Counted from the stretch's first letter, positions 1,093 through 60,850 are shown. The stretch is 60,850 bases of DNA from a virus (IMGVR_UViG_3300033149_001248:1-60850); one strand, 5' to 3'. The notes: generated by a model not told the origin, from the letters alone. Made by a program: numbers and translations.

Positions 1093-3286
1093 TAGACCGC
1101 TCCTTGGTCGAACGAACGGGCCGCTGAATACCAATAACCTGAACCCGGTGATAGAGTTTCTTGATCCGCTCCGTGGCCCGCCAACGTTGGTGTAACCGGC
1201 TTTTACCCGGCCCTTCGGGGGCATATATCTCGATCACTCCGATTCCCTTTAGAAACCGCAGCAAGTGTCGAGCCTTATCATCGGGCAGATTCATAATCCC
1301 TGCTAACGTACTAAAGCGCAGCCCCTCGGGATACGTACACAGGTGTTCCAAGGCCGTTAGCGTTACGCCACGGGCCGTATCGAGGGCCACCCGCTTGACT
1401 CGACGCATGACGTGACGATCTACAGACGAACGGTTTAAGACTAGCGCCAGACACTTCGCTAGCCGGGTTAGCTGGCTTACCAGCCTAGCTCCAAACTCCC
1501 GTTCCGCCGTTTCGATCTGGCGGGTGGACGGACGGGCGCGCATATAGGCTACAAACTTGCCTAGTGCAACCAACTGCCGTCGGGCTGTATCGTCTATCTT
1601 GATCTTAGGCAGCAATCGGGGAGCGTTTTCCCGCAGCCACTCGACGTAACCCCCTGTAGCTCGCATAGCCTTGACCTTTTCTGGGCTATAGAACGATTCG
1701 GGTTTGCCGTTGGACTGGGTGCTGATCTCTTGCTCCGCTCGGTTGACTACCCGCCAGAGGATATCATCCTCAAGCTCATCGTCGATCCGCTCCATGATAA
1801 CGCAGTCCAAGAACCGTTCCCCTAGCTCTGATTGATCTAGGCTTCGGATAGCCGACGTTCCGCAGAGGATCCAGGTCATACGCACATTTTCGTATTCCCG
1901 GCTAGTCGCGTTTCGGTAATGACTCCGCGAAACACAGTCGTATATGTCGCGCGCTTCGGCTAGAATCTGCGAAAGGTTCGGCGCTTGAAGCAACGTATCC
2001 CCGTCTTTGATCACTAGGGTCTTGTCCCGTAGCTGGTTGATTAGCGAATAGTCCTGCCCGTCTTCGGTACGGAACCCGCTTAGGAATCCCCGAATACTCG
2101 ACTTCGCTACGACATGCTGCCGAGCAACGGCTAACGCTTCGCAGAGGGTTGACTTCGCCGTAGCGGCGGGACCGACTACCTTAAGCCATAGCTGGTCGCC
2201 GATGAATGGGGTACTAGCTACCGTAGCCAGCATAGCGGCCAGAGCGTGGTCGAGACCATCGGTCCACTTGAGGGCTTTTCTCCAGTGTCGTATCAATTCC
2301 CGATAGCTCGTACACCGAGCGGGTCTAAGCCGTAGGGGGTCGGCTCCGCTATCGCCCTTTGCTTCAATCCAATCCTGGGGCACGGGCCGGGTCCAGTCCA
2401 GCAACAGCTGGAGTCGTTCCCCCCGTTGAACGTCTGGCCGACCGAGTAGATCACGAACGTCGGCCCCTTCCCGCTCACTGAGGTTCGACTCCGCCCAATC
2501 CAGACAGTACAGCTTCGTGAGAGGAACCCCATGGGCATGGAGCAAACGGGCTACCCGCAACATCCCGTTTCGACCCCCGGTGTCGTTGTCGTACAGTAGG
2601 TGCACCGCTTCCCGGTCCTTGAACAGGGCTACCCATTCATCACGAAACACAGAGCAACCGGGTACGGCTAAAACCCCGGCCCCCTGGCCAAGACTGTTTG
2701 CTACGGAACCTGTCGGAACCAGGCGGTGGCCCAGGGGCTTGTAGCTCCGTAGGGTTTCCCAGAGCACGATGGCATCCCACAACCCTTCGCAAAGCCAAAT
2801 CGTTTTCGGCCCCTTCGGTGACGACTTCGGCAACAAGGGAATACCGAGTAGCTGGTGGCGAAACGGCTTCGGAGTCGCTAGGAGCACCCGTCGGCCTCTA
2901 GCCGTAGTGTAACGATATACCTGGCGGATATGGCCCCGTAGGTCGTAGGCTGGAACCAACCAATCCCCCAGCAACGGAGAACGGCAGACGCCCCAAGCCC
3001 AGAGGCTTTCCGCCCGACAACCCCGTTCCTCTGCCAGGGGTTCTAGGTCTTCCACTCGACCCGCTTTCTGGCCGATCTCACAAAGCCACTTCAAAAACCC
3101 GTAGGCGTTTCCGGCCCAGTTGCATACCCAGCAATGAAACCGCCCATCATCGGTACGCACGGCTAGTTTTCCGGCTTTCCCACATACAGGGCAATCTCCC
3201 GTTGCTTCCTCAGAACCGTCTTCCCAGGATAGCTCTAGGCCGTGAAACAGATAGACCCGTAGTCCTTCCGGTGCAACTTTAGGCAT
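1085..3286 (-). CDS. Primase-helicase (zinc finger, Toprim, P-loop ATPase)
   Basis: A 733-residue replication protein. The N-terminus has a CHC2-like zinc finger with Cys 32, 35, 52 and 55. A Toprim-like region follows (CEGLWDAIVLWE, then HLLYDNDTGGRNG). The second half is an ATPase with Walker A GPAATAKST, the region ILCGTS and the arginine-containing LGERFLD. This order matches phage primase-helicases that prime and unwind the fork. It ends 8 bases inside the downstream methyltransferase start and begins 8 bases inside the end of the MazG gene, so all are in one leftward operon. The helicase subfamily is uncertain. Confidence 0.85.
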   Translation of the reverse strand: MPKVAPEGLRVYLFHGLELSWEDGSEEATGDCPVCGKAGKLAVRTDDGRFHCWVCNWAGNAYGFLKWLCEIGQKAGRVEDLEPLAEERGCRAESLWAWGVCRSPLLGDWLVPAYDLRGHIRQVYRYTTARGRRVLLATPKPFRHQLLGIPLLPKSSPKGPKTIWLCEGLWDAIVLWETLRSYKPLGHRLVPTGSVANSLGQGAGVLAVPGCSVFRDEWVALFKDREAVHLLYDNDTGGRNGMLRVARLLHAHGVPLTKLYCLDWAESNLSEREGADVRDLLGRPDVQRGERLQLLLDWTRPVPQDWIEAKGDSGADPLRLRPARCTSYRELIRHWRKALKWTDGLDHALAAMLATVASTPFIGDQLWLKVVGPAATAKSTLCEALAVARQHVVAKSSIRGFLSGFRTEDGQDYSLINQLRDKTLVIKDGDTLLQAPNLSQILAEARDIYDCVSRSHYRNATSREYENVRMTWILCGTSAIRSLDQSELGERFLDCVIMERIDDELEDDILWRVVNRAEQEISTQSNGKPESFYSPEKVKAMRATGGYVEWLRENAPRLLPKIKIDDTARRQLVALGKFVAYMRARPSTRQIETAEREFGARLVSQLTRLAKCLALVLNRSSVDRHVMRRVKRVALDTARGVTLTALEHLCTYPEGLRFSTLAGIMNLPDDKARHLLRFLKGIGVIEIYAPEGPGKSRLHQRWRATERIKKLYHRVQVIGIQRPVRSTKERSNA

Positions 3287-3680
3287 GATCGTTCTCCGTC
3301 ACCATGTTGAGTGCTTGTTCTTCGGCAACCAAATCCCGATGCGCGGCCCGTTCGTCTGAATAGCGTTCCGGGTATCGTATCCGCAGCTTATTGATGTTGG
3401 CCTGTAACACCCGCTCCATAGACATCCCCAAGGCGTTACAGGCCAACGCGATATACCAAAGCATATCGCCTAGCTCCTCAACCAGCCGAACCCGATTGAG
3501 AGGTTGACCGTAGTGAATGTGTTTCTCCCATTCGCAAGCCAATTCCCCGACTTCCCCCATCAGGCCAATAAGAGCATGATTGAGTCGGGTATTAGTAACC
3601 GAGCTAGCCAACCGATGGTGGGCCGCTCCTTGGACGCATTCGGTCCGCTTCGCTAATCGTTGATACTCGTTAACATCCAT
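3279..3680 (-). CDS. MazG-like nucleotide pyrophosphohydrolase
   Basis: A 133-residue all-alpha protein with the MazG metal-binding pattern: EVGELACEWEKH followed by VEELGDMLWYIALACNALG. Family members hydrolyse NTPs or dNTPs to monophosphates and pyrophosphate. Next to a thymidylate-synthase relative and a nucleotidase, it plausibly reshapes the dNTP pool, for example dUTP to dUMP as substrate, or removal of dTTP. The substrate is inference. A GAGGGG ribosome site precedes the ATG at 3680. Confidence 0.85.
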   Translation of the reverse strand: MDVNEYQRLAKRTECVQGAAHHRLASSVTNTRLNHALIGLMGEVGELACEWEKHIHYGQPLNRVRLVEELGDMLWYIALACNALGMSMERVLQANINKLRIRYPERYSDERAAHRDLVAEEQALNMVTENDHA

Positions 3681-3695
3681 TCGTCAATCCCCTCA

Positions 3696-4250
3696 CTAGT
3701 ACAAACGAACTTCCCAGAAAACCGTATTATACCCCGGCAGCGTTCCCCAATTCACGGAGTAGGTGGAAAACTCAACTACGTGATCGGGGTAGCGGTCTAG
3801 TAAGACCTGGAGCCACTCATAGCTGTTAGGGCATAGGAATCGTTGCAGCAGACACAACGCGAACACACCTCTAACCGTTCGTCCTTGGAGGCGTAATGCT
3901 TCGCGCATCGGTCGAGCTACGCAACTGTAGTATAGGTCGAGGCCCCACAGCCCCCGCTGAACTTCGCCCTGAAAGACGGTTTTATCAGTGGGGGCCATGG
4001 CGCTAATATACAACTGGTCGGCCCGATAGTAGCGTAGGGCTTCCGCCCACGCCCGCTCGAACCCCTCTGGGGGAACGTTATACCAGGTCCGCGCTCCGGC
4101 TACCCGGTTGCGGATATGGACTAGCCCCTTGTATCCGTCGGCTAAATACTCCTGGCGCGTTCCCCAAGTAGGGGAGTGATTACCAAATTCGCCTCGGATA
4201 TACCGCTCAACGAAGTCGGCTTTAGTCAAAACAGGCGGGAAGTCGGCCAT
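3696..4250 (-). CDS. Unknown protein inside the modification cluster
   Basis: 184 residues, rich in Tyr, Trp and Arg, with no motif I can assign. Stretches such as GLVHIRNRVAGARTWYNVPP and a C-terminal half with several aromatic residues suggest a folded soluble enzyme or adaptor. No membrane segment or signal is visible. Its start overlaps the end of the thymidylate-synthase-like gene by 29 bases, and it sits between that gene and mazG. By guilt of association it is a candidate modification or nucleotide-pool enzyme; the function is not inferable from sequence. Confidence 0.75.
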   Translation of the reverse strand: MADFPPVLTKADFVERYIRGEFGNHSPTWGTRQEYLADGYKGLVHIRNRVAGARTWYNVPPEGFERAWAEALRYYRADQLYISAMAPTDKTVFQGEVQRGLWGLDLYYSCVARPMREALRLQGRTVRGVFALCLLQRFLCPNSYEWLQVLLDRYPDHVVEFSTYSVNWGTLPGYNTVFWEVRLY

Positions 4251-5283
4251 GACGTTTCTCCAACCAGAGGGCTAGGGCGTTTCTCCAACCGAAGTCTTTT
4301 ACACGACGCATCCACCGAGTCGCCCCTTCCACGTTCCCGGTTCGATGACAGAAAAAGCTATTCACGGCCGGGGCGACTACCTTAGCCAGCCACTGACTCT
4401 TCCAAGCATCCGGGTCGAGCAGGTGCTGGTATCCTACCAGACTATCGGTAAACGCTCCGGCCTCTTCCAACGCGATCCCATCGGGTTCCGGCCCTCTGGG
4501 GGAAGACACATAGTCGCTCAGCAACTGCCGGGTACTCGGCAACTCGTACCAGTCCAACCAGGTCTTCGCTCCGGCCAAAATAAAGCTATAGACGTGAGCG
4601 TTGTTCGTGAACTGGTAGTAACTCCCCTGCGGATAACCGGATAGACTAGCGACTACCGAGTGAATATAGCTGAAGTGGACTACGTTAGCCCCTAGTGCGC
4701 CCCAAACCAGGTCGTTAGAGCGGTTACAAACCGTCATCCTCAGACGACCGTTTTTCTCGACCATGAAATACAGATGCGTATTGCAGGGCAGGTCTTTGGA
4801 ACCGCTCGCCAACCCCCGTAGGTCAATCTCGGGGTTCCATATTGCCACGACTACCCGCCGTGTGTTGGGATCACGCTTGAGCTCATCGGCGGCTAGTCTT
4901 AGCTGGTCGATACTCAGAGGCGGGTATCGCCTCATGCGGTGTCCGTAGGCTCCCGACAACGTACAACCGTCGTCACTGTATTCGGCCATCCGCCGATTGA
5001 ACAGCGTCAGGGGTTTTACGTCGTTACGACCGGCCAGCATCCAGACGGTTTCAACTAGGTGAAAGACGGGGTTGGCATCTCGGGGCTGATTAAGCAATAC
5101 CCGAAGATACGGCATACGATACTCGATCAGCAACGGCTCCGTCAGTTGATAAATATGGCCTACCCGACTGTCTCGATAGCCGATGTCAGGGTCGGTTAAC
5201 TTCGCGTGGTCTGTTGCCCGTCGGTAAAACAAGCCAATCAAATCTTGAAACGCCTGGTTAACGTGCGCGTACCTGACTTCCAT
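4222..5283 (-). CDS. Thymidylate synthase homologue, probable dUMP hydroxymethylase
   Basis: 353 residues from the ATG at 5283 (AAAGGG six bases upstream; the frame extends further upstream but only within the nucleotidase gene). Family landmarks are DPNTRR near 138-143, the catalytic Cys167 in LPCNTH, NRSND at 187-191 and the substrate-sensing Asn200 in WGALGAN. That Asn is kept in dUMP enzymes and replaced by Asp in dCMP hydroxymethylases, which points to dUMP. Canonical ThyA has PCH at the active site; here it is PCN. With a DNA kinase-like protein and an amino acid:DNA transferase-like protein in the same operon, I infer that it makes 5-hydroxymethyl-dUMP rather than dTMP. Ordinary ThyA activity is the alternative. 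Confidence 0.85.
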   Translation of the reverse strand: MEVRYAHVNQAFQDLIGLFYRRATDHAKLTDPDIGYRDSRVGHIYQLTEPLLIEYRMPYLRVLLNQPRDANPVFHLVETVWMLAGRNDVKPLTLFNRRMAEYSDDGCTLSGAYGHRMRRYPPLSIDQLRLAADELKRDPNTRRVVVAIWNPEIDLRGLASGSKDLPCNTHLYFMVEKNGRLRMTVCNRSNDLVWGALGANVVHFSYIHSVVASLSGYPQGSYYQFTNNAHVYSFILAGAKTWLDWYELPSTRQLLSDYVSSPRGPEPDGIALEEAGAFTDSLVGYQHLLDPDAWKSQWLAKVVAPAVNSFFCHRTGNVEGATRWMRRVKDFGWRNALALWLEKRHGRLPACFD

Positions 5284-5848
5284 GGCGTACCCTTTCGACA
5301 TTAGGGGATTCAGACAAAACCTCAGACAACCGCTGCTTGAGGTAACGTATCGGGTCGTGGGTGTATAGTCGGTTTTGACTACACGGAAACAGAATCGCTT
5401 TCCCGCCCGCACGGCGGAATCCAATTATAGTCGATTCCCGGTCGTCTATGAGAACATTATCGGGTCGGGCTAATGCTGTCTTATGGGGCGTAAACACGTA
5501 GCGGTCGAACGTTTCCCCGAAGTATCTTCGCAACCAGCGTATCTTTCCGGCTACGCACTCGGGGTGCATCGACGGCGCGCTAACGATTAGCCACGGCACC
5601 CCCTGGTTCTCCACCAACTTGACTACGGACCAAAACCAAGGGGTAGGCTCTAGCCGCTCCCAAAACTCTGCCCCTAGTCGGTTAATCGGCTCCCAAAATT
5701 GGCGGGCGTTTAGACCCATAGGTTCGAGAATCGACCAGGCTCCCGGCTCTTTGCGCTCTAGTAGCCGCTCCCAATTCCAGCCGTGGACCCGTAAAGCACC
5801 CCCCACAAAGTCGGCTAGAACCTCATCCATGTCCAGCAAAATCATCAT
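5258..5848 (-). CDS. 5'(3')-deoxyribonucleotidase-like HAD phosphatase
   Basis: 196 residues. The HAD nucleophile motif is LLDMDEVLADF (Asp6, Asp8); motif II is LIVSAPS and motif III is NVLIDDRES. This is the 5' deoxyribonucleotidase type, which dephosphorylates pyrimidine deoxynucleoside monophosphates. In this cluster it could remove dTMP so that canonical thymine is not incorporated; that role is inference. It is the first gene left of the divergent control region and overlaps the next gene by 26 bases. Confidence 0.8.
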   Translation of the reverse strand: MMILLDMDEVLADFVGGALRVHGWNWERLLERKEPGAWSILEPMGLNARQFWEPINRLGAEFWERLEPTPWFWSVVKLVENQGVPWLIVSAPSMHPECVAGKIRWLRRYFGETFDRYVFTPHKTALARPDNVLIDDRESTIIGFRRAGGKAILFPCSQNRLYTHDPIRYLKQRLSEVLSESPNVERVRHGSQVRAR

Positions 5849-5893
5849 CGTAAACCCTTTAGCTATAACGACTTACAACTTTTTCCAAAATCG

Positions 5894-5935
5894 GTCAAGA
5901 AAACCCCTTGACTTGCCGATAGGATTAGCTATAAT
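5894..5935 (+). promoter_or_regulatory. Rightward sigma-70 promoter with back-to-back -35 palindrome
   Basis: TTGACT (5908-5913), 16 bp, TATAAT (5930-5935), reading into the small regulator gene at 5993. GTCAAG (5894-5899) and CTTGAC (5907-5912) form an inverted repeat, so a second -35 faces left toward the nucleotidase operon, although I see no good leftward -10 at 16-17 bp. The palindrome could also be an operator. Confidence 0.75.
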
Positions 5936-5992
5936 GGAGGTGTCGGTTGAACGTTATTCGTTTCGTTAACCCGTTCGTGAAGGAGTGGAGCA

Positions 5993-6337
5993 ATGGCTAA
6001 GACCCGTACCCCCAAAACCACGAAGACCACCAAGACCGCGAAGAAACCGGCCGCGAAGAAACCGGCCAAGAGCAACGGCCCGGCGTTGGGCAAGGTCCAC
6101 GTTCGGATTCTCCGAGCGCTCGCCAAGTCTGGAAAGCCTATGTCTCGTACCCAACTGGCCAAAGCAGCCCAAGTCCACCCGTCGGTCATCGGCAAATATG
6201 CCGGGTACGTCAACCCCGATATCAACGCCCGGCCCGTTCATAGCGGGAACCTGCTCAACCAGGGAATGGTTAAGATTGAAGCGCACCCCGACGGAACATA
6301 CTACGCTATTACCCCTAAGGGCCGTAAGGCCGTATAG
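5993..6337 (+). CDS. Small basic winged-helix DNA-binding protein
   Basis: 114 residues. The first 30 or so are a Lys/Thr/Ala/Pro tail resembling histone-type tails (KTTKTTKTAKKPAAKK), followed by a winged-helix fold: VHVRILRALAKSGKPMSRTQLAKAA, HPSVIGKYAG as recognition region, and a wing YYAITPKGRKAV. It is the only rightward gene in the leftward 1-19 kb block, with its own promoter and terminator, so it is a self-contained regulator or nucleoid-like protein. It lies exactly between the two halves of the modification cluster and could regulate them or bind modified DNA; that is inference. Confidence 0.8.
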   Translation: MAKTRTPKTTKTTKTAKKPAAKKPAKSNGPALGKVHVRILRALAKSGKPMSRTQLAKAAQVHPSVIGKYAGYVNPDINARPVHSGNLLNQGMVKIEAHPDGTYYAITPKGRKAV

Positions 6338-6370
6338 CGGCCCCGTAAACAGCCATAGCCACAGCCTAGG

Positions 6371-6406
6371 CCCCCTAGCCCCGTATCGGCTAGGGGGTCT
6401 TTTCTT
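6371..6406 (+). terminator. Rho-independent terminator of the small regulator gene
   Basis: A perfect 10-bp stem, CCCCCTAGCC (6371-6380) with GGCTAGGGGG (6388-6397), 7-base loop, followed by TCTTTTCTT. It terminates rightward transcription. The tail overlaps the stop of the converging amidoligase gene. Confidence 0.9.
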
Positions 6407-7385
6407 ATGGGTACAGGTGTTTGTACGGTTCGTTAGACACATCATCAAATCTCCCCTCTAGAATGGCCTGCCGGTTTCTAGCGACTATGGCTCTTGTATT
6501 CTTGGAGTAAGACGTTGCTTGCCAACGACGTTCTCGCCACCCAAGAAACTTCGGTCTCGGGGGAAACTCCCGATGCGCGTATCGTTCCCAATAGACGGCT
6601 AGCGGGTCGGTTCCCTCAATCAAGCAGATTAGTAGATCACGGCATAGCTCTATAGCGGTCAATACCTGCTCCGGCGTTTCCGCCTGGAAAAACGGCCGGA
6701 ACTCGATTGTATCGCTTTGGAGTAGCTGCCGGATATTAACCGTCGGCCTTGGTTGGGCGTGGTATAGCGGCTTTCCCGCTTTCGACCAGGGGCACTCTAG
6801 GCTGATTAGCTCCTCAACGGTTTTAGCCTCTAGCTGCTTACGAACTCGGTATTCGGGGATAATCGTCCAATGACTCCGTTTGATATGAGCTAGCCACTGT
6901 TTCAGTAACTTCCTATCGGCCGTTGTTTCGCAGGGATAATAGTCGGCATCTAGCGGGTCGATGACCTCTAGAAACGGACGCAAATTGAGACAATTGGTTT
7001 GTATCCGTTTCAGAATCTCAAGACCCCGCTCCCGTAAGCCGGGAACCCGGATATGGACTTGGGTACCTGCCCGGTGGGTTACTCTAGTTTCAGGGAATCG
7101 GGTTAGAAACTCATGGAACAGCTGGGCCTGCCCGTCCGGGGTATCGGTCGGCGGGGTGTTAATCTCCGCTCCAAACGGGTAGTCTTTCAGCGTTGGGTCG
7201 CCTGCTATTCCGTTCGTGTTTGTAATCTGAGGTTCTGGGTCTCGACCGTAGCCCTCCCAACCCCGGCGGGTGTCCCAGTCGGACAGCTCGTGCTCCGCTC
7301 CATAGGTCCAATACTTCGGGTCGAGCCAGTGATACTTAGCTATTCCCCATAGTCGTTGCCGTTTCTTCCGTTGTTTCTTCGCCAT
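6405..7385 (-). CDS. Amidoligase-like enzyme (glutamine-synthetase-like fold)
   Basis: 326 residues. The pattern matches the amidoligase family related to glutamine synthetase: GAEHEL near 29-34 (metal-binding acids), GAEINTPP, HIRVPG, RPTVNIRQLLQ and TIEFRPFFQ. Family members are thought to use ATP to form amide bonds between a carboxylate and an amine. Directly after the PLP enzyme and the DNA transferase-like gene, it may extend or cap an amino acid on thymine, or prepare the substituent; this is inference. Assignment rests on motif order; the N-terminal 20 residues are a basic tail. Confidence 0.65.
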   Translation of the reverse strand: MAKKQRKKRQRLWGIAKYHWLDPKYWTYGAEHELSDWDTRRGWEGYGRDPEPQITNTNGIAGDPTLKDYPFGAEINTPPTDTPDGQAQLFHEFLTRFPETRVTHRAGTQVHIRVPGLRERGLEILKRIQTNCLNLRPFLEVIDPLDADYYPCETTADRKLLKQWLAHIKRSHWTIIPEYRVRKQLEAKTVEELISLECPWSKAGKPLYHAQPRPTVNIRQLLQSDTIEFRPFFQAETPEQVLTAIELCRDLLICLIEGTDPLAVYWERYAHREFPPRPKFLGWRERRWQATSYSKNTRAIVARNRQAILEGRFDDVSNEPYKHLYP

Positions 7386-7399
7386 GGCCTAGCTCCTGC

Positions 7400-8254
7400 T
7401 CAGCCAATATTCCAAAACAGCGTATCCGGGTAACGTTCCCGTTCTCGCACCCACCAACGAAACGCCTTTAGGTCATAGTACGGATTGCAAGGCCAATCAG
7501 GTGTCGGTCCGGGGCGGGCCGTATCCCGATATTGATAACCCTCGTCAATTACCTCAACCGGGAAGTCATCTACTCCTGACATCTTCAACAAGTATTTCAA
7601 CACGGCTGTTTCTGGCCGGGAATACCCCAGGTGAATCAGAAACCTAGCCACCTGAATCCCCCGCTCAACGAACCCTCGTATAACCCCCGCTGCAATCGTT
7701 CCGCTACTAGCCGGAATCAGGACGTAACGGAACGGACGGTTAGGCACTTCGGCCGCTGTCTCCGCCACCGTTTCTGGTAGCTTCAGCGCGTTGGGCATCA
7801 TATAACCGCCTTCGGCTTGGCATAGTTTCTTCGCCTGGTGATAGAGGATAGCCGATCTTCCGGCGGGTAGCCCGACTAGCTCCGCTCCGTAGCTCTGGGC
7901 TAGTCGCTGGGGGGCCCTCGGCCCTGGTTCACGTTTGTACTCGGGATAGTAGTTGAGGCATCGCTTACCTAACGACCTACAGACTCGGGCGACGGCCGCT
8001 CCGGCTTGGCTATGGTAGGTGTCTAGCACTCCGATAACCGCTTCAGGGCGGCTAGCAATTCGCCGATAGCATCCCCGAATCTTGGAAAAGTAGGGGCCAG
8101 GGGGTAGGCAGGCTAGGTCTTCGCGCTTCACCCACAGCCCCCATTCCTCACGAAACTCTATCGGGGTGCCTACTCGGATAATACCATGAACAACCCGGCC
8201 CCTAGAGCGTCGGCAGGTGTTGGAGCAATCGTTGGTTGGTTCTCGTTTTGGCAT
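7400..8254 (-). CDS. PLP-dependent enzyme, fold type II (ACC deaminase/threonine synthase-like)
   Basis: 284 residues from MPKREP, chosen because many phage proteins here begin MPK; an in-frame ATG at 8287 is the alternative. WVKREDLACLPPGPYFSKIRG places the likely Schiff-base lysine at Lys58, and PASSGTIAAGVIRG is the phosphate-binding loop of fold type II enzymes. Such enzymes do beta/gamma elimination, replacement or deamination of amino acids. In characterised phage pathways PLP enzymes act on thymine-linked amino acids in DNA; here the fold type differs from a typical decarboxylase, so I do not predict the reaction. It overlaps the transferase-like gene by 53 bases. Confidence 0.75.
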   Translation of the reverse strand: MPKREPTNDCSNTCRRSRGRVVHGIIRVGTPIEFREEWGLWVKREDLACLPPGPYFSKIRGCYRRIASRPEAVIGVLDTYHSQAGAAVARVCRSLGKRCLNYYPEYKREPGPRAPQRLAQSYGAELVGLPAGRSAILYHQAKKLCQAEGGYMMPNALKLPETVAETAAEVPNRPFRYVLIPASSGTIAAGVIRGFVERGIQVARFLIHLGYSRPETAVLKYLLKMSGVDDFPVEVIDEGYQYRDTARPGPTPDWPCNPYYDLKAFRWWVRERERYPDTLFWNIG

Positions 8255-8993
8255 ATCTAAGCAACGCCTTTCTGATATCATGAACATCTTTCCCGATGTA
8301 GTAGTGGCCCGATAGGTGCGACTTCCACTTGCAGAAAACCGTTTCCGTTTCCTGAACGTTCAGCCCCCGTTCGCCTCTGGGAGGCGCTAGTCGTTCGCCC
8401 AACCCGTCGAGTAGGTATCTATGAGCGTCAACTAGCGTTCCCCCGCCTAGGTATCGTTCGGCTACTAGATTTGCCCCCTGCTTTGATGTAACGAACATGT
8501 CGTCCAGGTCGGCTTCGCTAAACTCGATGGGCGCTATAGCTAGTCGCTCTAGCATATCGGGAACCTTCCACTTAATCCACTCGCCAAACCCCGGCAACTC
8601 CGTTACCCGTCGCATCACGTCTCCGGCCTTCGGCCCGGCTTCGATCAACCAGTCAATAACGGCTCCCGCCCCCTGGGGGAAACGATTGCGTAGATACCCG
8701 ATAGCCCGTTTGGCTATCCGCCCCCGGAAGTGCCTACGCTCAACCCCTCTAGGCCAATGGGTTCCGCCTTCGACTATAGCCATCATACCCTTCCAATACT
8801 CAGTCGAGTCGGCTATCTCGCTAACGATACCACAGACCCCGGGATGGTAGTAGCACCAGTAGGTTACTAGCCAACGACGTAGCTGGTCCGGGGGTAGCTC
8901 CGCTTTCCAGAGCGCTACGTACAGAGGATCAAGGTCCAGGGTATCGACTAGCCGCTGGCCAAACTCGATGGCCGGTAAAGCGTCTTTGTTCAT
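8202..8993 (-). CDS. Amino acid:DNA transferase-like protein (thymine pyrophosphorylase family)
   Basis: 263 residues from MNKDALPAIE, where GGGAGA sits 7 bases upstream. The mostly helical sequence has WLVTYWCYYHPG near 41-52, EGGTHWPRGVERRHFRG near 75-91 and a helix-hairpin-helix-like segment LPGFGEWIKWKVPDM at 133-147. To my knowledge this is the signature of the alpha-glutamyl/putrescinyl-thymine pyrophosphorylase family, also called amino acid:DNA transferase. These enzymes displace the pyrophosphate of phosphorylated 5-hydroxymethyl-dU in DNA with an amine. The attached amino acid cannot be read from sequence. Confidence 0.75.
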   Translation of the reverse strand: MNKDALPAIEFGQRLVDTLDLDPLYVALWKAELPPDQLRRWLVTYWCYYHPGVCGIVSEIADSTEYWKGMMAIVEGGTHWPRGVERRHFRGRIAKRAIGYLRNRFPQGAGAVIDWLIEAGPKAGDVMRRVTELPGFGEWIKWKVPDMLERLAIAPIEFSEADLDDMFVTSKQGANLVAERYLGGGTLVDAHRYLLDGLGERLAPPRGERGLNVQETETVFCKWKSHLSGHYYIGKDVHDIRKALLRYAKTRTNQRLLQHLPTL

Positions 8994-9007
8994 CGTTCGG
9001 TCTCCCG

Positions 9008-10327
9008 TTAGATACCCCGCCAGGGTCGTTGAAGGTCTTTCAGTCGCAGCTTCCGCGCTTCGCCCATGAGCGTATCTCCGCATGGGGGCACATCTCCCTC
9101 ATGCTCTACGCAATACAAGCATCCCGACGGCGGGCAGCAGTCTAGGGGCTGGAACGGCTCATCGAGTGAGTGGCGTCGATAGACGGGCACGGCCGGTCCA
9201 TGACACTGAGCCGCTGTCGTGAATCGAGGCCCAAGGCTTGCTAGTGGTTCCCCTTTCCCCGTTGAGCAATACTCGTAGCATAGCCCGTAGGTTAGCCCTA
9301 ATCGTCTAGCCGCGGCCCGAAGTCGCTTATGGGCGCGTATCCGATAGTCTTCGTCAACGGTTCGCTGCCCGCCGATGTTCTGATTGAACAACCGCTCGAA
9401 CTGCTTACCTCGCTTGCCAAACACTCGTATCATCCGGCTAACCAACGTTGGTGCCCAGGAGAAACCAGCCTCCACAAACTTAACGATCACGTGGTCGGCT
9501 CCGGCATCGGCTAGCATGCGGAACAACTCGACTAGCTGATCGTTGCTAGTGACTCCGGGGATGACCGGATTAACCTGAATTGATACGTAGATACCAGCGT
9601 CATGTAACCGCCGAACATCCCGTAGCTGGTCGTCTAGCGGTGGAGCCCCTGGACTCATACGTCGCCAGTCATCGGGGTCCGACGTATTGATTGACTTTTG
9701 CGCATAGCTGTAGGGGTTCCGCCGTAGGAGCCCAATTGCCCAGGTTGGGTAGGTTAACCGGCTTAGGAAGAAAATTGGCAGCCCTCGATTAACGAACGCT
9801 CCGGCCGTTCGCATCGAGTTACCATACCACGATTCTAGCGGATTGAACGGGTCGTGAAAGCTAGTAATGTATCCGGCGGCAGCCCTATAGCAACGGTCTA
9901 GCTCCCGACCGACTTGCTCCCCGTAGTTAACTGGAACGGTTACTAGCCCCGTGCCCCGATAGCCGCGCACCCCGGCGTTGACGTAGCAATGAATACATCG
10001 CACGGGACAATAGCCCCCGTATGGCTCGGTCAGTAGCGCTTCAGTATAGCAAGGTCGAGGCCGTACCCCGGCCGGTTCGTGCTTCGACTTGTACCAGCCC
10101 TGAATCGACTTCCCCCGCTCTAACCGAATATGCGGGTAGGGGTCTAGATACACCTTGACGCGCATCTTTTCCTTGGCGTTTCGCACCATACCTATCTCCG
10201 CCCATCGTACTCGCATCTTCCGGCGGAGTAGGGGGTCATCCTCTAGCTCGATTGGGCCTAGGTACTTGCAAGGCTCCGGTCGCATGAAGTAGGCATAGCC
10301 GGTTTCGTCAGTCTTGGTTTTTGGCAT
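9008..10327 (-). CDS. Radical SAM enzyme, spore photoproduct lyase-like
   Basis: 439 residues. CxxxCxxC is at Cys107, 111 and 114 (YCPVRCIHCYVNAG), which binds the 4Fe-4S cluster and SAM. The barrel resembles the spore photoproduct lyase group, which acts on thymine in DNA. The C-terminal 60 residues carry extra cysteines (CCPPSGCLYC and a later Cys), possibly a second cluster. Radical SAM enzymes rearrange thymine-linked amino acids in known phage pathways; that role here is inferred from position between the kinase and transferase-like genes. It overlaps the kinase by 20 bases. Confidence 0.85.
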   Translation of the reverse strand: MPKTKTDETGYAYFMRPEPCKYLGPIELEDDPLLRRKMRVRWAEIGMVRNAKEKMRVKVYLDPYPHIRLERGKSIQGWYKSKHEPAGVRPRPCYTEALLTEPYGGYCPVRCIHCYVNAGVRGYRGTGLVTVPVNYGEQVGRELDRCYRAAAGYITSFHDPFNPLESWYGNSMRTAGAFVNRGLPIFFLSRLTYPTWAIGLLRRNPYSYAQKSINTSDPDDWRRMSPGAPPLDDQLRDVRRLHDAGIYVSIQVNPVIPGVTSNDQLVELFRMLADAGADHVIVKFVEAGFSWAPTLVSRMIRVFGKRGKQFERLFNQNIGGQRTVDEDYRIRAHKRLRAAARRLGLTYGLCYEYCSTGKGEPLASLGPRFTTAAQCHGPAVPVYRRHSLDEPFQPLDCCPPSGCLYCVEHEGDVPPCGDTLMGEARKLRLKDLQRPWRGI

Positions 10328-10874
10328 TGATCGACTCCCTTATCCAACGCAGTATTAGGTCAGGGGCCTGTTCGCAGGTAACTCGCCGACACTCGACCCC
10401 AGCCTCGGTAAGCCTCTGTCTAGCCCGCTCAATAACCTTCACCCGCCTAACCGTCTTAAACGTATTCAGTGGCTTCGTATTTCCAACACTCAACCGCCGT
10501 TTCCGTATCCGCTCTAGACAGGTGTCTATCGGGGTGGTCAGAAACACAACCTTGAGCCGATTCAACTGTGAACTCCACTTAACATCTTCGCTCAGTAATA
10601 GCCCCTCCGCGAGAACAACGGCGGGGTCGTGCTCGGTTATCACCTGTTGAATCAGCTGGTAGATAGCTCGGGCGTTTCCTATCGTATCCCCGCCACCGGA
10701 AGGGCTTTCGTAATGGCCTAATACGATTATACCCTCACTCTTGTAGTACAAAGGGTTTCGCCGTCGGGGTCGATACACGGGATACAGGGTTCGGTTTAAT
10801 CGTTTCAAGACTTCACGCATGACGGTGCTTTTGCCGGAACCCGATGTTCCTCGAATCTGAATCACGGTGGTCAT
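10308..10874 (-). CDS. 5-hydroxymethyl-dU DNA kinase-like P-loop kinase
   Basis: 188 residues. Walker A is GTSGSGKST at 9-17, followed by IIVLGHYESPSGGGDTIGN, a pattern I associate with phage 5-hmdU DNA kinases, then VVLAEGLLLS and CLERIRKRR as lid-like region. These kinases phosphorylate 5-hydroxymethyluracil in polymerised DNA, activating it for substitution. A GTGGAG ribosome site precedes the ATG. The next gene upstream, 3 bases away, matches the kinase's helical domain, so a protein that is fused elsewhere appears split here. Confidence 0.8.
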   Translation of the reverse strand: MTTVIQIRGTSGSGKSTVMREVLKRLNRTLYPVYRPRRRNPLYYKSEGIIVLGHYESPSGGGDTIGNARAIYQLIQQVITEHDPAVVLAEGLLLSEDVKWSSQLNRLKVVFLTTPIDTCLERIRKRRLSVGNTKPLNTFKTVRRVKVIERARQRLTEAGVECRRVTCEQAPDLILRWIRESINAKNQD

Positions 10875-10876
10875 GG

Positions 10877-11725
10877 CTAATTCTCCACACGATAGATTCT
10901 CTTAGGTCGGCCCTGATTAAACAGCGTCCGTTCGTATCGGTCAAACTCGCACAGGCAATTCTGCCAGTCAATCGCTTCCATGCGTCGGGTTAGTCCTCTA
11001 GGTAGCTTCGGTTCTAGGTTGTTTATTAGCTCAGTGAGGTAGCTCTCAAACGCCTCTTGGTTTAGGGGATGATTCAGGCGTCGCTCTAGAACACGATTCA
11101 ATCCACGACGGGAACCCGGACCCATCGGCGCCCATACCCGGCGGTCTTTCCACTGGCCGGTTAGAGCTAAGCGCAGGTCAGCCGTAATTTGCCCAGCCAT
11201 AAACGATCCCATGCCGCGTCGAGGCACCAGCGCAGCCCAGGTCTCCCGCATGCTGTCGGTATTGATCGGTGGAGGATTGTCGGCTAGAGGACAGACCGTA
11301 TAATCAACGACGCACGATACCTTGTCTGTCCCATCGTTACCCCTGACCATATAGGCGCCGTTGAAAATCGTGTTGCCCTGACGTCTGTAGGCCCGTAGTT
11401 GTTGCTTTACCCGCTCCGGCTCCCATGTCTCCGGGAACCCGATTAGCTCTAGGGTCTCCGGCCGGTTGAAGAATCTCGCTAGCGCGCAGGCGATTAGCAT
11501 ATTGGGATGGTCTTTATAGGGATTATACCAGTGGCGGATCAGCCACCGACTAACCCGGTCATCCCGTCGGATAACATTACAGAAACGATAACGCCTCAGA
11601 ATCGGATCATCCGTCCAGGGCCAGGGTTCCCCGGCCTCTTTACGCTGGCGGATAGTCTCCCGTTCCCGAATCCAATAGACTAGCCGATCAATCGGCCGCA
11701 GCTTCGCTACCCGTTCCAGGTCCAT
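10877..11725 (-). CDS. 5-hmdU DNA kinase helical-domain protein
   Basis: 282 residues from MDLERV (TGGAGG 6 bases upstream). Conserved features are EREtIRqRKEAGEPWPWTDDPIL (20-43), YRFCNVIRRDDR (46-57), RFFNRPETLELIGFP, IFNGAYMVRG and a late GPGSRRGLN. To my knowledge this is the helical domain that accompanies or is fused to 5-hydroxymethyluracil DNA kinases in phages and some eukaryotes. It probably recognises DNA or the modified base. It is the first gene of the cluster, 30 bases downstream of the polymerase. Confidence 0.75.
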   Translation of the reverse strand: MDLERVAKLRPIDRLVYWIRERETIRQRKEAGEPWPWTDDPILRRYRFCNVIRRDDRVSRWLIRHWYNPYKDHPNMLIACALARFFNRPETLELIGFPETWEPERVKQQLRAYRRQGNTIFNGAYMVRGNDGTDKVSCVVDYTVCPLADNPPPINTDSMRETWAALVPRRGMGSFMAGQITADLRLALTGQWKDRRVWAPMGPGSRRGLNRVLERRLNHPLNQEAFESYLTELINNLEPKLPRGLTRRMEAIDWQNCLCEFDRYERTLFNQGRPKRIYRVEN

Positions 11726-17357: not shown

Positions 17358-18215
17358 TTACAAACAACGATTATAGCCCCTCCCGTCTAGCGATTCCCGT
17401 AGGTCCGCTAGGGAAACAATAGCCCGCTGCACGGCTAGGTCTTTTGCCCAGGATTCTAGCCGGAGTATCGCTGCGGGGTGGACTATCTCCTTGGTCAATA
17501 GCCGTTCCCGTTGATCTTCGGGTAGAGCGTAAGGGCCGTGCTTAGCGGCTAACCGCCCAACCCACACGACGGCTCTGGGGTGACTCATAGCTAGAAACTC
17601 CGCCAGCCTCGGGCGGCAAGCCTCGATCCACTCGGGTATCGGCTCGATCTTAGCAGCGTCGATGTTCTCAAGAAACAACTCCCGTAGCAACTCCCCGTAG
17701 CAAGCCTCGCTACCCCCGCAACCGCAACCGATCCGTAACCCGGCTAGGACGGGCAGTCGTTTAAGCCGTTGCTTCCCCTCACGGGTGTCGGTGTACCAGC
17801 CCCGCGCCCTCTGAACCCCGGCCGGGGTATCTACCCGAAACGGCAGCGACCACTCCCGGCTCTTAGGCAGCCATACGTCCGAAGACCGAGGGTCATGAAC
17901 TACTTGCGGCGGACTAAGGGCCGGGAAGCATCCGACTAGGTTAGTGATAGCATAGCTTCGGAAGTCGGGGCCTAACCCCTGGGTAATGACGTAGTCAAGT
18001 AGGTGCCCGGCCGGTCCAACGAACGGTCGCCCAATTACGTTCTCGCTAGCTCCGGGGGCTTCCCCGACAAAGACTACTTCAGCCGGAACCCGACCCCTAG
18101 CTAGTACCACTCGGTTACGACACTGCGATAGCCTACAACGCTGGCATCGAGACCAACGACGGGCGTGTCTCTGGAAGGGGGTCAATCGACTCTTAGCTGG
18201 CTTGGTTGACTTCAT
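17358..18215 (-). CDS. Uracil-DNA glycosylase, Fe-S family 4/5-like
   Basis: 285 residues. Fe-S cysteines are at 24, 27 and 32 (CQRCRLSQC) with later CGCGG/ACYG cysteines. Motif A is FVGEAPGASEN (49-59), followed by IGRPFVGPAGHLLD. An insertion of about 80 residues separates the two halves, longer than in typical 200-residue members. The enzyme removes uracil from DNA. In a phage that may polymerise hydroxymethyl-dU it could police uracil misincorporation without touching the modified base. ATGA overlap with the preceding gene. Confidence 0.85.
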   Translation of the reverse strand: MKSTKPAKSRLTPFQRHARRWSRCQRCRLSQCRNRVVLARGRVPAEVVFVGEAPGASENVIGRPFVGPAGHLLDYVITQGLGPDFRSYAITNLVGCFPALSPPQVVHDPRSSDVWLPKSREWSLPFRVDTPAGVQRARGWYTDTREGKQRLKRLPVLAGLRIGCGCGGSEACYGELLRELFLENIDAAKIEPIPEWIEACRPRLAEFLAMSHPRAVVWVGRLAAKHGPYALPEDQRERLLTKEIVHPAAILRLESWAKDLAVQRAIVSLADLRESLDGRGYNRCL

Positions 18216-30370: not shown

Positions 30371-31333
30371 TTAGGTCTCCTGTCGGTTAGCGGGTTCGGA
30401 TAGCTTTGCGTTTTGAAGATAGCACGTTACCCGTCCGACGCTTCCCCCTAACTGGTCGAGGCGGGTAACGTGTTGAATGCCAGCAGGTCGCCGAAGTCCT
30501 CGACGCATGGCGGTCGAGTAGTGGGTTCTAGTAACCTGTGCGGGGGCATCGGTTTGTCGATCTAACGATCCCCAACCCCGTAAAGGTACGCCACAACGGG
30601 GGCAGTAGAAACGGGCTTGTTCTCCGAAGACTTCCCAGCCCTGCTTCCACCAACCCGGCTCGACCGTCACTCCTAGGTCGGGCCAATCGGGTTCCCCGTA
30701 ATGGAAGGTAGCTAGCGCCCCGGCTATCTCGCAAAAGTAGCCCCTTAACCGGCCGTTGACAACAGCGACCATCGCTGACCAGTGGCGGTTAATATCGCAA
30801 CGGGTAATCTTCGCCCACTGTTGTTCGGGCGGTAGTAGGTCTTGAACGGCCGTAAGGATCGGCGGGTGTCGGCTAGGCTGGTCGAGGCCGAACGGTTTTG
30901 CTTCGGGCCAACCCCTCCGTATCTCGTTAAATGCTTCCCTTGAACCGTGAACGTTAAGGTTGCTGTAGGCCGGGTTAAACGTCTTCGCGCAAACGGGGCC
31001 GTATTGGTAGATACGGTTGGACCAGAGGCCGCACTGTTCGGCCGGGAAGTACCGTTGAAGAATCTCGCAGAGTAGGGCGAACTGCGAATGGAGGCAGGGG
31101 TTTCCGCCGAAGACGCCTACCACGCCCCAATAGCCCCGCAGACTAGCTACCGCTCGTTCAAACTGCTCGGGCGTCATAGTCGTATCCCAGCCAATCTTTC
31201 GCCAATCGCATAGCTGGGTACAGTTAGGGCAAGAGCCGTCGCAATGGGACGTTACCCGAATCTGAATAACGCCTTCGCGCGGTTTGCCCGGTCGGCGGTC
31301 TCTGGGGAGAATCATTACTTCATATGGTTCCAT
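30371..31333 (-). CDS. Radical SAM protein in the glycosyltransferase cassette
   Basis: 320 residues. CxxxCxxC at Cys31, 35 and 38 (SHCDGSCPNCTQLC), then GVFGGNPCLH and a C-terminal FYCPRCGVPL that may hold an auxiliary cluster (SPASM-like). It is distinct from the radical SAM enzyme of the modification cluster. Two bases separate it from the neighbouring glycosyltransferase. Substrate unknown. Confidence 0.8.
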   Translation of the reverse strand: MEPYEVMILPRDRRPGKPREGVIQIRVTSHCDGSCPNCTQLCDWRKIGWDTTMTPEQFERAVASLRGYWGVVGVFGGNPCLHSQFALLCEILQRYFPAEQCGLWSNRIYQYGPVCAKTFNPAYSNLNVHGSREAFNEIRRGWPEAKPFGLDQPSRHPPILTAVQDLLPPEQQWAKITRCDINRHWSAMVAVVNGRLRGYFCEIAGALATFHYGEPDWPDLGVTVEPGWWKQGWEVFGEQARFYCPRCGVPLRGWGSLDRQTDAPAQVTRTHYSTAMRRGLRRPAGIQHVTRLDQLGGSVGRVTCYLQNAKLSEPANRQET

Positions 31334-59321: not shown

Positions 59322-59913
59322 TGGAGTTTCCTTCCGTTTCGTTCGGTGGCTCTTGGGCCAATAGCTCTTGTTCTACGGGGTTCGTTTCCGTCGGCGGGGT
59401 AGCTAGCGCGTCCCAGTCGATTCCGTCTTTCGCCGTAGCCTCGATCTGGTGACGCTCAGGGGCCAAGAGACCCTTATGTTTCATCGCTAGGTCAACCGCT
59501 CCTAGCTTCGGAGACAACCGCAGACGGGTGCGAACCTTTTTCTCACCCCGCTCTAGGTCGATGGTTACCACCTGGTCTAGCCCGTCGATAACCGCGCGCG
59601 CTCGCTCGCTCATCAACGGGACAGGAAGCACTGCTCCTTCGTCATCGACCATCTCACCTACGTCTCGGGTGACTAGGTAGTACAGCTGGGTTAGAATCTC
59701 CTCGTGAGTCAATTCCCGTTGGCGGTTATCCCGCCGTACTTGCTCTTGAATAGCAGCCTTAACGTGCGGGGTTTTCAGTAGTCGAGCGGCCGCATGCGAT
59801 GGTCGCTTATACCCGGCGGCCTTAGCGGCTCTAGCCCCGTTGTAGTCAACTAGATACTCCGCTACAAAGACTAGCTGTCGGTCCGTGAGTTTATGGTCGA
59901 GTGATCTAGCCAT
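59314..59913 (-). CDS. Terminase small subunit
   Basis: 199 residues. LTDRQLVFVAEYLVDYNGARAAKAAGYKRPSHAAARLLKTPHVKAAIQ is the Terminase_2-type DNA-binding start. Coiled/acidic C-terminus. Recognises the packaging site. Its ATG overlaps the methyltransferase stop by 8 bases. Confidence 0.9.
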   Translation of the reverse strand: MARSLDHKLTDRQLVFVAEYLVDYNGARAAKAAGYKRPSHAAARLLKTPHVKAAIQEQVRRDNRQRELTHEEILTQLYYLVTRDVGEMVDDEGAVLPVPLMSERARAVIDGLDQVVTIDLERGEKKVRTRLRLSPKLGAVDLAMKHKGLLAPERHQIEATAKDGIDWDALATPPTETNPVEQELLAQEPPNETEGNSNA

Positions 59914-60850
59914 CGTTAACCGTCCGTCCTAGTACGGGCGCTTGCTGACCCGCCCCGATCAGCGGGGCCAAGCCGGGGTGGTCGAGCATCGCACCTTGAA
60001 TCCGGGGTATCGCATCGTTTTTCAGGTAGGTCTCCGAAAGGTCTATTCCCCAGCATCGCAGCCCTAGGCCCAACGCCACTACAACGGTCGTACCGCTACC
60101 CACGAACGGGTCCAACACTAGTTGAGGCTCTACTACCAGCTTATTATACGCCTTGGACAACGCCCGCCATCGTCTGCGCCATCGGTCCATCCCCCGAGAA
60201 CCTAGCGGTAGGTTCCGGGGCGGGTCTTCGATCCGGGGAACCCCGTAGCAATCGCAGCCAGGTCTCCAGCCCACCGTAGTCGAAGGCCAAGAACCTAGCG
60301 GTAGGTTCCGGGGCGGGTCTTCGATCCGGGGAACCCCGTAGCAATCGCAGCCAGGTCTCCAGCCCACCGTAGTCGAAGGCCAATAGCCCCCGCCCGCCTG
60401 GTTCAATTCTCTGCCGTGTTGTTTGTAAGGGGAGTCGGGTTTTCGGCGCATAGGTTGTTGTTTCGTATAGGGCCGTCTAGACACAACCCTTTCCCAGCCA
60501 CGGCCGCAAGTAGGGCAGGCCCCGTAGCGGCTCGTTCCCGCAGCTAGGCAGAGGCGTACTAGCTCTGGAGGGAACACAGCACAGTGGCTACCCGGGTGGT
60601 TCCCCGGCGCAATCGTCCAGACCGACCGGCGGTTTCGCCCCGCTCCTAGCTCGATGGTCCGGCGGGGCGCTCGATCCTTACGGGTACACATCCCGTATTG
60701 CCCCTCGGAGCGTAGTTTCCCGATGGAACCGCTACGGATGTCGGTGACGATTAGCCGGCCATCTGCCGCTTGACGGCGGGTCGCTTCGCTGTACGACTCT
60801 TTGATCGCCTCGGCATCGTAGTAATACTGCGAACCGAGCGTTAGCAGAAA
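59906..60850 (-). CDS. DNA methyltransferase, second allele or paralogue (cut by right edge)
   Basis: Frame open through the right edge; an ATG at 60691 is internal, not the real start, because codons upstream align with the left-edge copy (FLLTLGSQYYYDAEAIKESY against FLLTTGTKYYYDAEAIKVPY). Contains CPTCG, a duplicated 31-residue segment, and the SAM motif LDPFVGSGTTVVVALGLGLRCWGIDLS. Same family as the left-edge gene. Confidence 0.85.
   Translation of the reverse strand, partial: FLLTLGSQYYYDAEAIKESYSEATRRQAADGRLIVTDIRSGSIGKLRSEGQYGMCTRKDRAPRRTIELGAGRNRRSVWTIAPGNHPGSHCAVFPPELVRLCLAAGTSRYGACPTCGRGWERVVSRRPYTKQQPMRRKPDSPYKQHGRELNQAGGGYWPSTTVGWRPGCDCYGVPRIEDPPRNLPLGSWPSTTVGWRPGCDCYGVPRIEDPPRNLPLGSRGMDRWRRRWRALSKAYNKLVVEPQLVLDPFVGSGTTVVVALGLGLRCWGIDLSETYLKNDAIPRIQGAMLDHPGLAPLIGAGQQAPVLGRTVNDG
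60176..60289. repeat. Right copy of the terminal repeat
   Basis: Identical to bases 1-114. If the molecule is circular, base 1 follows 60175 with the methyltransferase frame kept, and 60176-60850 would be a diverged overlap. Confidence 0.85.
60197..60382. repeat. 93-base in-frame tandem duplication
   Basis: Two identical 93-base units (60197-60289 and 60290-60382) encode a doubled 31-residue segment starting WPSTTVGWRPGCDCYG. The left-edge copy of the gene has one unit. In frame, so the protein stays intact. Confidence 0.95.

Follow-up and report, generated by a model that had tools for sequence, protein, structure and literature searches.

A predicted amide-forming ligase in an M6-type thymine hypermodification cluster of a bacterial virus

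INTRODUCTION

What would an ATP-dependent ligase of the amidoligase type do in a phage gene cluster that remodels thymine? The question is raised by IMGVR_UViG_3300033149_001248, a virus DNA of 60,850 nucleotides (the window, by which we mean the whole stretch analyzed), in which a hypermodification cluster at 3279-11725 includes a gene at 6405-7385 on the minus strand for an Amidoligase_2-type protein. The window comes from a virus of bacteria that carries an established set of genes for converting thymine to a base with an amine side chain. DNA of Pseudomonas phage M6 contains 5-(2-aminoethyl)deoxyuridine (5-NedU) (PMC6449724). Here, we argue that the window encodes a thymine hypermodification pathway of the M6 type to which a single tailoring step has been added, N-acylation of the 5-aminoethyl group, and we put the probability of this reading at about 0.55.

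RESULTS

An amidoligase joined to an M6-type gene set

We scanned the 10 minus-strand open reading frames (ORFs) of 3279-11725 against Pfam, PHROGs and NCBIfam. An earlier interpretation of the window, made from the sequence alone (the sequence-only reading), had named nine proteins here, and eight of them directly matched the families that it had assigned. The remaining one, the amidoligase, was placed through 40 of 46 aligned relatives gathered from viral contigs, which match PF12224 (Amidoligase_2; E values up to 1, best 2.1e-8), and through its glutamine synthetase/glutamylcysteine synthetase (GS/GCS) fold; the gene list is thus real. M6, a Yuavirus, has homologs of six of these proteins among gp51-gp58, at 30 to 53% identity, which bears out the proposal of a shared backbone: an amino acid:DNA transferase (ADDT; gp51), a pyridoxal phosphate (PLP) enzyme of the PALP family (gp52), a radical S-adenosylmethionine (SAM) protein (gp53), a 5-hydroxymethyldeoxyuridine (5-hmdU) DNA kinase (gp54), its helical-domain partner (gp55), and a ThyA relative (gp58). 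The gene orders differ, and the amidoligase is found in the window but not in M6. Because M6 has these six counterparts and makes 5-NedU, we regard the window's backbone as M6-type and the amidoligase as the addition.

The sequence-only reading had also seen a second novelty, a different class of PLP enzyme. This did not hold, as M6 gp52 is the same enzyme and is 48% identical to that of the window. In a control set of contigs chosen by ADDT only, 60 of which had sufficient context, PALP was present in 26 of 31 loci with the radical SAM gene versus 0 of 29 without it (p = 2e-12). Since M6 has PALP and the enzyme is confined to radical SAM loci, the amidoligase is the only pathway enzyme that departs from M6. 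The PALP enzyme occurs in 69 phage records, 53 of them from Pseudomonas phages. Pseudanabaena phage Pam3 has the same six-gene backbone, with a PALP enzyme 55% identical, and no amidoligase was found there. A pathway of the ViI type was also considered and is not favored, given that the PALP-bearing organisms include no Salmonella phage and that the radical SAM gene is present.

The amidoligase gene lies 14 bp downstream of the PALP gene and in the same direction. Its assignment draws on family homology, motifs and predicted fold. The invariant columns of the family are G29xE31xE33, D63, G72xE74, H111, R213, and TxE228FR230; the window protein retains every one of these residues, and its reading frame is intact. 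An AlphaFold model (mean predicted local distance difference test score, pLDDT, 92.6) was compared with solved structures by Foldseek, and the PDB matches listed were mostly GS/GCS-fold enzymes (glutamate-cysteine ligase, YbdK, glutamine synthetase, Pup ligase, and depupylase). Among predicted viral structures (BFVD), annotated phage amidoligases matched the model at 1.8e-11 and 1e-7. We therefore predict that the protein is a ligase that forms an amide on a modified base.

The ligase family accompanies base-modification genes

The amidoligase is rare in sequenced phages: at a threshold of E 1e-3, only 2 of 50,697 records, phage Simon and Vibrio phage 2.275.O, carried it, and a distant relative used as the query found the same two. 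A search of bacterial genomes gave only four weak matches, all to Bacteroidales-type metagenome-assembled genomes or genomes, without host information. We also examined viral contigs, which are metagenomic and partly redundant; loci are given L numbers below where needed. At least one base-modification partner was present on 76 of 80 contigs selected by the amidoligase, and the loci formed two groups. The thymine-type group carries the ThyA relative, the kinase, its helical partner and the transferase, together with either radical SAM plus PALP or a flavin enzyme; the latter gives matches at 4e-72 to flavin-dependent lyases of solved structure (8z79 and 8z2o). This repeated link to thymine hypermodification clusters upholds the earlier view of the amidoligase as an added function.

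The second group carries a TET/JBP oxygenase, a class II glutamine amidotransferase (GAT-II), a divergent transferase (ADDT, 6e-21), and a P-loop kinase, a set that suggests cytosine as its target. Loci such as L046, L052, L053, and L055 combine TET/JBP, GAT-II, the divergent ADDT, and the amidoligase with a low-molecular-weight phosphotyrosine phosphatase (LMW-PTP)-like gene and the P-loop kinase. Clusters with TET/JBP, GAT-II, and ADDT are apparently the cytosine counterpart of the ADDT pathway. Iyer reportedly discussed TET-linked clusters of this sort in 2013.

In the control set, the amidoligase was present in 10 of 60 loci, 3 with radical SAM plus PALP and 7 with the flavin lyase. Among 52 non-redundant clusters with both amidoligase and transferase, 25 had one of these amine-forming branches without GAT-II, 24 had GAT-II without such a branch, and none had both; the remaining three had neither, and all lay near a contig end. 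Only L077 (a ThyA relative and helical partner with GAT-II) and L054 (TET with the flavin enzyme) cross between the thymine type and the TET type. On the amidoligase tree, pairing with radical SAM requires at least four changes, which points to repeated recruitment; the radical SAM-paired ligases form one clade (the window, L002, L009, and L115) and appear separately in L014, L042, and L113. The ligase gene also stands amid pathway genes: in L113 it is flanked by PALP and radical SAM, and in L205 it comes immediately after the flavin lyase. L113, which is outside the 46 aligned relatives, matches PF12224 weakly.

Several further genes adjoin the ligase. In the control set, an LMW-PTP-like phosphatase gene was found only where the amidoligase was present (6 of 10 loci versus 0 of 50, p = 4e-6); it directly follows the amidoligase at L029 10848-11312 and in many other amidoligase loci but, unlike in these, is absent from the window. 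Phage Simon (PQ683277), a sewage isolate, has ADDT, the kinase, the helical partner, the ThyA relative, and an amidoligase of the same family; it differs from the window in having the flavin-dependent lyase branch and an LMW-PTP-like gene beside the ligase, and radical SAM and PALP were not seen in the stretch examined. In Vibrio phage 2.275.O, the amidoligase relative (L024 11866-12978) adjoins queF, GTP cyclohydrolase, and queD, which are genes of 7-deazaguanine modification, and a GAT-II-like gene is present as well. In the two nearest relatives of the window, proteins unlike each other are encoded between PALP and the amidoligase (L009 10875-11666 and L002 4825-5499), the one in L002 beginning with a sulfotransferase-like GCGRSGT.

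Backbone genes and a proposed order of reactions

The backbone genes, all on the minus strand, can be followed in the order in which their products would act. The ThyA-family protein (4222-5283; PF00303, 2e-20; phrog_5131, 1e-79) is 38% identical to M6 gp58. Its ORF extends to 5424, and counting from an internal ATG at 5283 confirmed the residues Cys167 and Asn200 that had been cited for it. Its best PDB match is cytidine monophosphate (CMP) 5-hydroxymethylase (8e-17), and because Asn replaces the Asp of that enzyme, we consider it a deoxyuridine monophosphate (dUMP)-type protein. It is probably a dUMP hydroxymethylase, with a methylase as the alternative. The MazG nucleotide pyrophosphohydrolase (3279-3680; PF03819, 2.6e-9; phrog_229, 4e-39; EVGE and ELGD motifs) probably clears thymidine triphosphate (dTTP) or other unmodified nucleotides. 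Next to the ThyA gene lies that for a HAD-family 5′-deoxynucleotidase of the NT5C type (5258-5848; PF06941, 5e-12). Related loci carry either a HAD or an HD nucleotidase, and the window's HAD enzyme probably substitutes for the HD nucleotidase gp59 of M6.

The helical-domain partner of the kinase (10877-11725; PF18723, 2.8e-47; 30% identical to gp55) and the ADDT (8202-8993, ORF to 9083; PF18724, 1.1e-13, over the cut-off) matched the families that the sequence-only reading had assigned to them. The P-loop kinase itself (10308-10874; GTSGSGKS) also matched its expected family, HMUDK (PF18748, 9.6e-6), but its score of 25.7 bits falls just under the curated cut-off of 27; it is 30% identical to M6 gp54 (1e-16). 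The latter (NC_007809; phrog_800) is labeled "terminase small subunit" in PHROGs and in its own record, a label that is probably wrong. The transferase family profile matches solved DNA glycinyltransferases, PDB 25qc (1.5e-122) and 8z2m (3e-109). The radical SAM protein (9008-10327; phrog_9252, 3e-154; CPVRCIHC cluster motif; weak against Pfam Radical_SAM, 1.3e-3) is 53% identical to M6 gp53 and is a probable isomerase of glycyl-thymine. The PALP enzyme, of fold type II (7400-8254, ORF to 8287; PF00291, 4e-12; phrog_7093, 9e-62), has an invariant SKxRG lysine and is a probable decarboxylase of C-linked glycyl-thymine.

From these assignments we propose the following route, for which the order of the M6 reactions is taken from pathway background and from a by-elimination reading of the M6 genes. 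The ThyA-like enzyme would make hydroxymethyl-dUMP, and the pool of ordinary thymine nucleotides would be depleted by MazG together with the HAD nucleotidase. Once incorporated in DNA, 5-hmdU would receive a phosphate from the kinase, acting with its helical partner, and the transferase would swap this phosphate for glycine. The radical SAM enzyme would convert the N-linked glycyl to a C-linked glycyl group, whose carboxyl the PALP enzyme would strip to leave 5-(2-aminoethyl)-dU. Finally, a small acid (probably an amino acid) may have its carboxyl activated by the amidoligase at the expense of ATP and be coupled to the amine, giving N-acyl-5-(2-aminoethyl)-dU. In both thymine branches the amino acid carboxyl is lost at the end and a primary amine is left. 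Since the ligase has been recruited repeatedly to clusters that end in a primary amine, acylation of that amine is the simplest role for it. We infer the thymine base as its target, the amine as the acceptor, and the donor; an amide-bearing base is our best prediction.

A variable cassette in a conserved layout

In this phage lineage a fixed core comprises polA, the helical partner, often the kinase, then HAD, the ThyA relative, a 184-amino-acid protein, MazG, and primase/helicase. A variable cassette is bounded on one side by the kinase and on the other by a winged-helix-like gene that runs in the opposite direction. Its versions include radical SAM, ADDT, and PALP with or without the amidoligase, and ADDT and flavin lyase with the amidoligase (L205); other cassettes hold quite different genes, some radical SAM-like. 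The window has the version with radical SAM, PALP, and the amidoligase.

The opposing gene (5993-6337, plus strand), between the amidoligase and HAD genes, encodes a winged-helix-like protein with a Lys/Ala-rich basic tail, whose helix-turn-helix matches in Pfam are all sub-threshold. Homologs occupy the same place in L002, L003, L004, L005, L009, L011, L012, L017, and L115. A promoter-like site is present at 5908-5935 (an 11-of-12 match) and a terminator-like stem of 13 pairs at 6368-6400. The gene is a candidate regulator that marks the edge of the variable cassette. It also interrupts what had been described as a single leftward block: the named genes do all run leftward within 3279-11725, but the block is not unbroken. 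The earlier inventory, sound for its nine proteins, had overlooked both this gene and the one for the 184-amino-acid protein.

The 184-amino-acid protein (3696-4250, minus strand) had no match in Pfam, PHROGs, or NCBIfam. Its model (pLDDT 92.3) has an ATP-grasp-like fold resembling D-Ala-D-Ala ligase, PurK, and biotin carboxylase, and all 50 PDB matches listed were ATP-grasp enzymes (best E 1.6e-4). No homolog was found in the 18 kb of M6 examined. In most of 37 loci the gene follows the ThyA gene, whether the transferase is present or not. A tight link to the amidoligase, 2.2 kb away, was considered and rejected, as the two co-occur in only 2 of the 37 loci and the gene follows ThyA without ligase or transferase. 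Since it belongs to the core and not to the cassette, we did not make it part of the amide step.

Three other features of the window were noted. A protein of the uracil-DNA-glycosylase superfamily with an N-terminal Cys cluster is encoded at 17358-18215 on the minus strand (PF03167, 3e-16), in a phage whose DNA should contain 5-hmdU. A second radical SAM-like protein, with a CDGSCPNC motif, is encoded in the tail-gene region (30371-31333, minus strand). Positions 1-1224 and 59906-60850 encode the same DNA methyltransferase with slightly different sequences, and the first 114 bases are found again at 60176; the contig probably represents an almost complete genome in which sequences of strain variants have been joined.

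DISCUSSION

Taken together, these data suggest that the window's virus follows the M6 route to an aminoethylated base and then acylates it. Several points weigh against this reading. The window's ligase by itself does not match PF12224 at E values up to 1 or 10, so that its label comes from family homology and not from the curated model; the amidoligase profile expected of it was recovered through its relatives only. The best PDB match of its model has an E value of only 7.6e-3. The ligase was found in 10 of 51 control loci with an amine-forming branch and in 0 of 9 without one, a contrast that alone is not significant. The separation of amine-forming branches from GAT-II largely tracks the division between thymine-type and TET-type clusters, which inflates its p value (7e-12) through relatedness. 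A second ATP-dependent ligase-like protein, the ATP-grasp-like product of 3696-4250, could take part in the pathway. Finally, the only proven amide ligase for a DNA base works with the opposite polarity. This enzyme, CmoY of the CmoA/CmoX/CmoY set of Synechococcus phage S-B43, ligates glycine to 5-carboxymethylcytosine in DNA (PMC12783734).

CmoY is the precedent for the main rival explanation, in which the amidoligase would activate the glycyl carboxyl of the base, either ahead of decarboxylation or in its place, and add an amine or ammonia to it. Like the predicted window ligase, CmoY is a phage enzyme that forms an amide on a DNA base at the expense of ATP; it differs in being an asparagine-synthetase (AsnS-type) homolog that acts on cytosine and uses the base as the carboxyl donor, whereas the window ligase has the unrelated GS/GCS fold. 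No cluster protein matched a Pfam family for asparagine-synthetase (AMP-forming) ligases. In TET-type clusters the ligase family occurs with GAT-II and without a carboxyl-removing branch. Because the carboxyl should persist there and GAT-II can act as the ammonia source, ligases of this family may amidate the carboxyl in those clusters, and such amidation is the main rival for the window too. In the window, however, an M6-type PALP enzyme encoded immediately upstream of the ligase should remove the glycyl carboxyl, and GAT-II was not matched. The flavin-lyase branch, the ligase's commonest partner in thymine clusters, likewise removes it. We therefore consider carboxyl amidation unlikely here, though better placed than the other alternatives.

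It is less probable again that virion DNA carries simply 5-NedU, like that of M6, and that the amidoligase is inactive, works only conditionally, or has no bearing on the end product. The backbone is of the same kind as in M6, and the window's ligase is divergent, with an end branch of 1.04 and at most 48% identity to its relatives. Against this stand its intact frame, the complete set of invariant residues, and the repeated recruitment of the ligase seen on the tree.

A non-DNA target, such as peptidoglycan, a metabolite, or a protein of the host, is suggested by Pseudomonas phage modules that combine GGCT, ATP-grasp, and amidoligase proteins and have proposed non-DNA targets (PMC11945000), by the many phage proteins of this fold named amidoligase, and by the small ATP-grasp-like protein nearby, but we regard it as the least probable explanation given the base-modification partners on nearly all amidoligase-selected contigs, the ligase's place between pathway genes, an ATP-grasp-like gene that does not track with the ligase across loci, and the lack of GGCT among the window proteins scanned, which cover part of its ORFs. 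The Amidoligase_2 family pairs with base-modification genes in the window, unlike in those modules.

With acylation of the amine as the preferred reading for the window, we tentatively extend the idea, at somewhat short of even odds, to the GS/GCS amidoligase family as a whole: it may provide a general amide-forming tailoring step, at work on thymine, together with GAT-II on TET-derived cytosine, and in the neighborhood of 7-deazaguanine genes. The product here would be a hitherto undescribed aminoethyl-dU bearing an acyl, perhaps an aminoacyl, group. We found no report of a GS/GCS-fold amide ligase acting on thymine; an earlier mention of amidoligases in such clusters is possible, as key surveys lie outside the literature covered.

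The assignment is directly testable, since M6 DNA already holds the presumed substrate, and phage Simon is a sequenced isolate with an amidoligase of the same family. If true, it would bring a new class of enzyme into phage DNA hypermodification, and it would predict amino-acid-like side chains on thymine that exceed the known amines in size and would therefore probably block restriction more effectively. It would also suggest that one ligase family is shared across thymine, cytosine, and perhaps deazaguanine systems.

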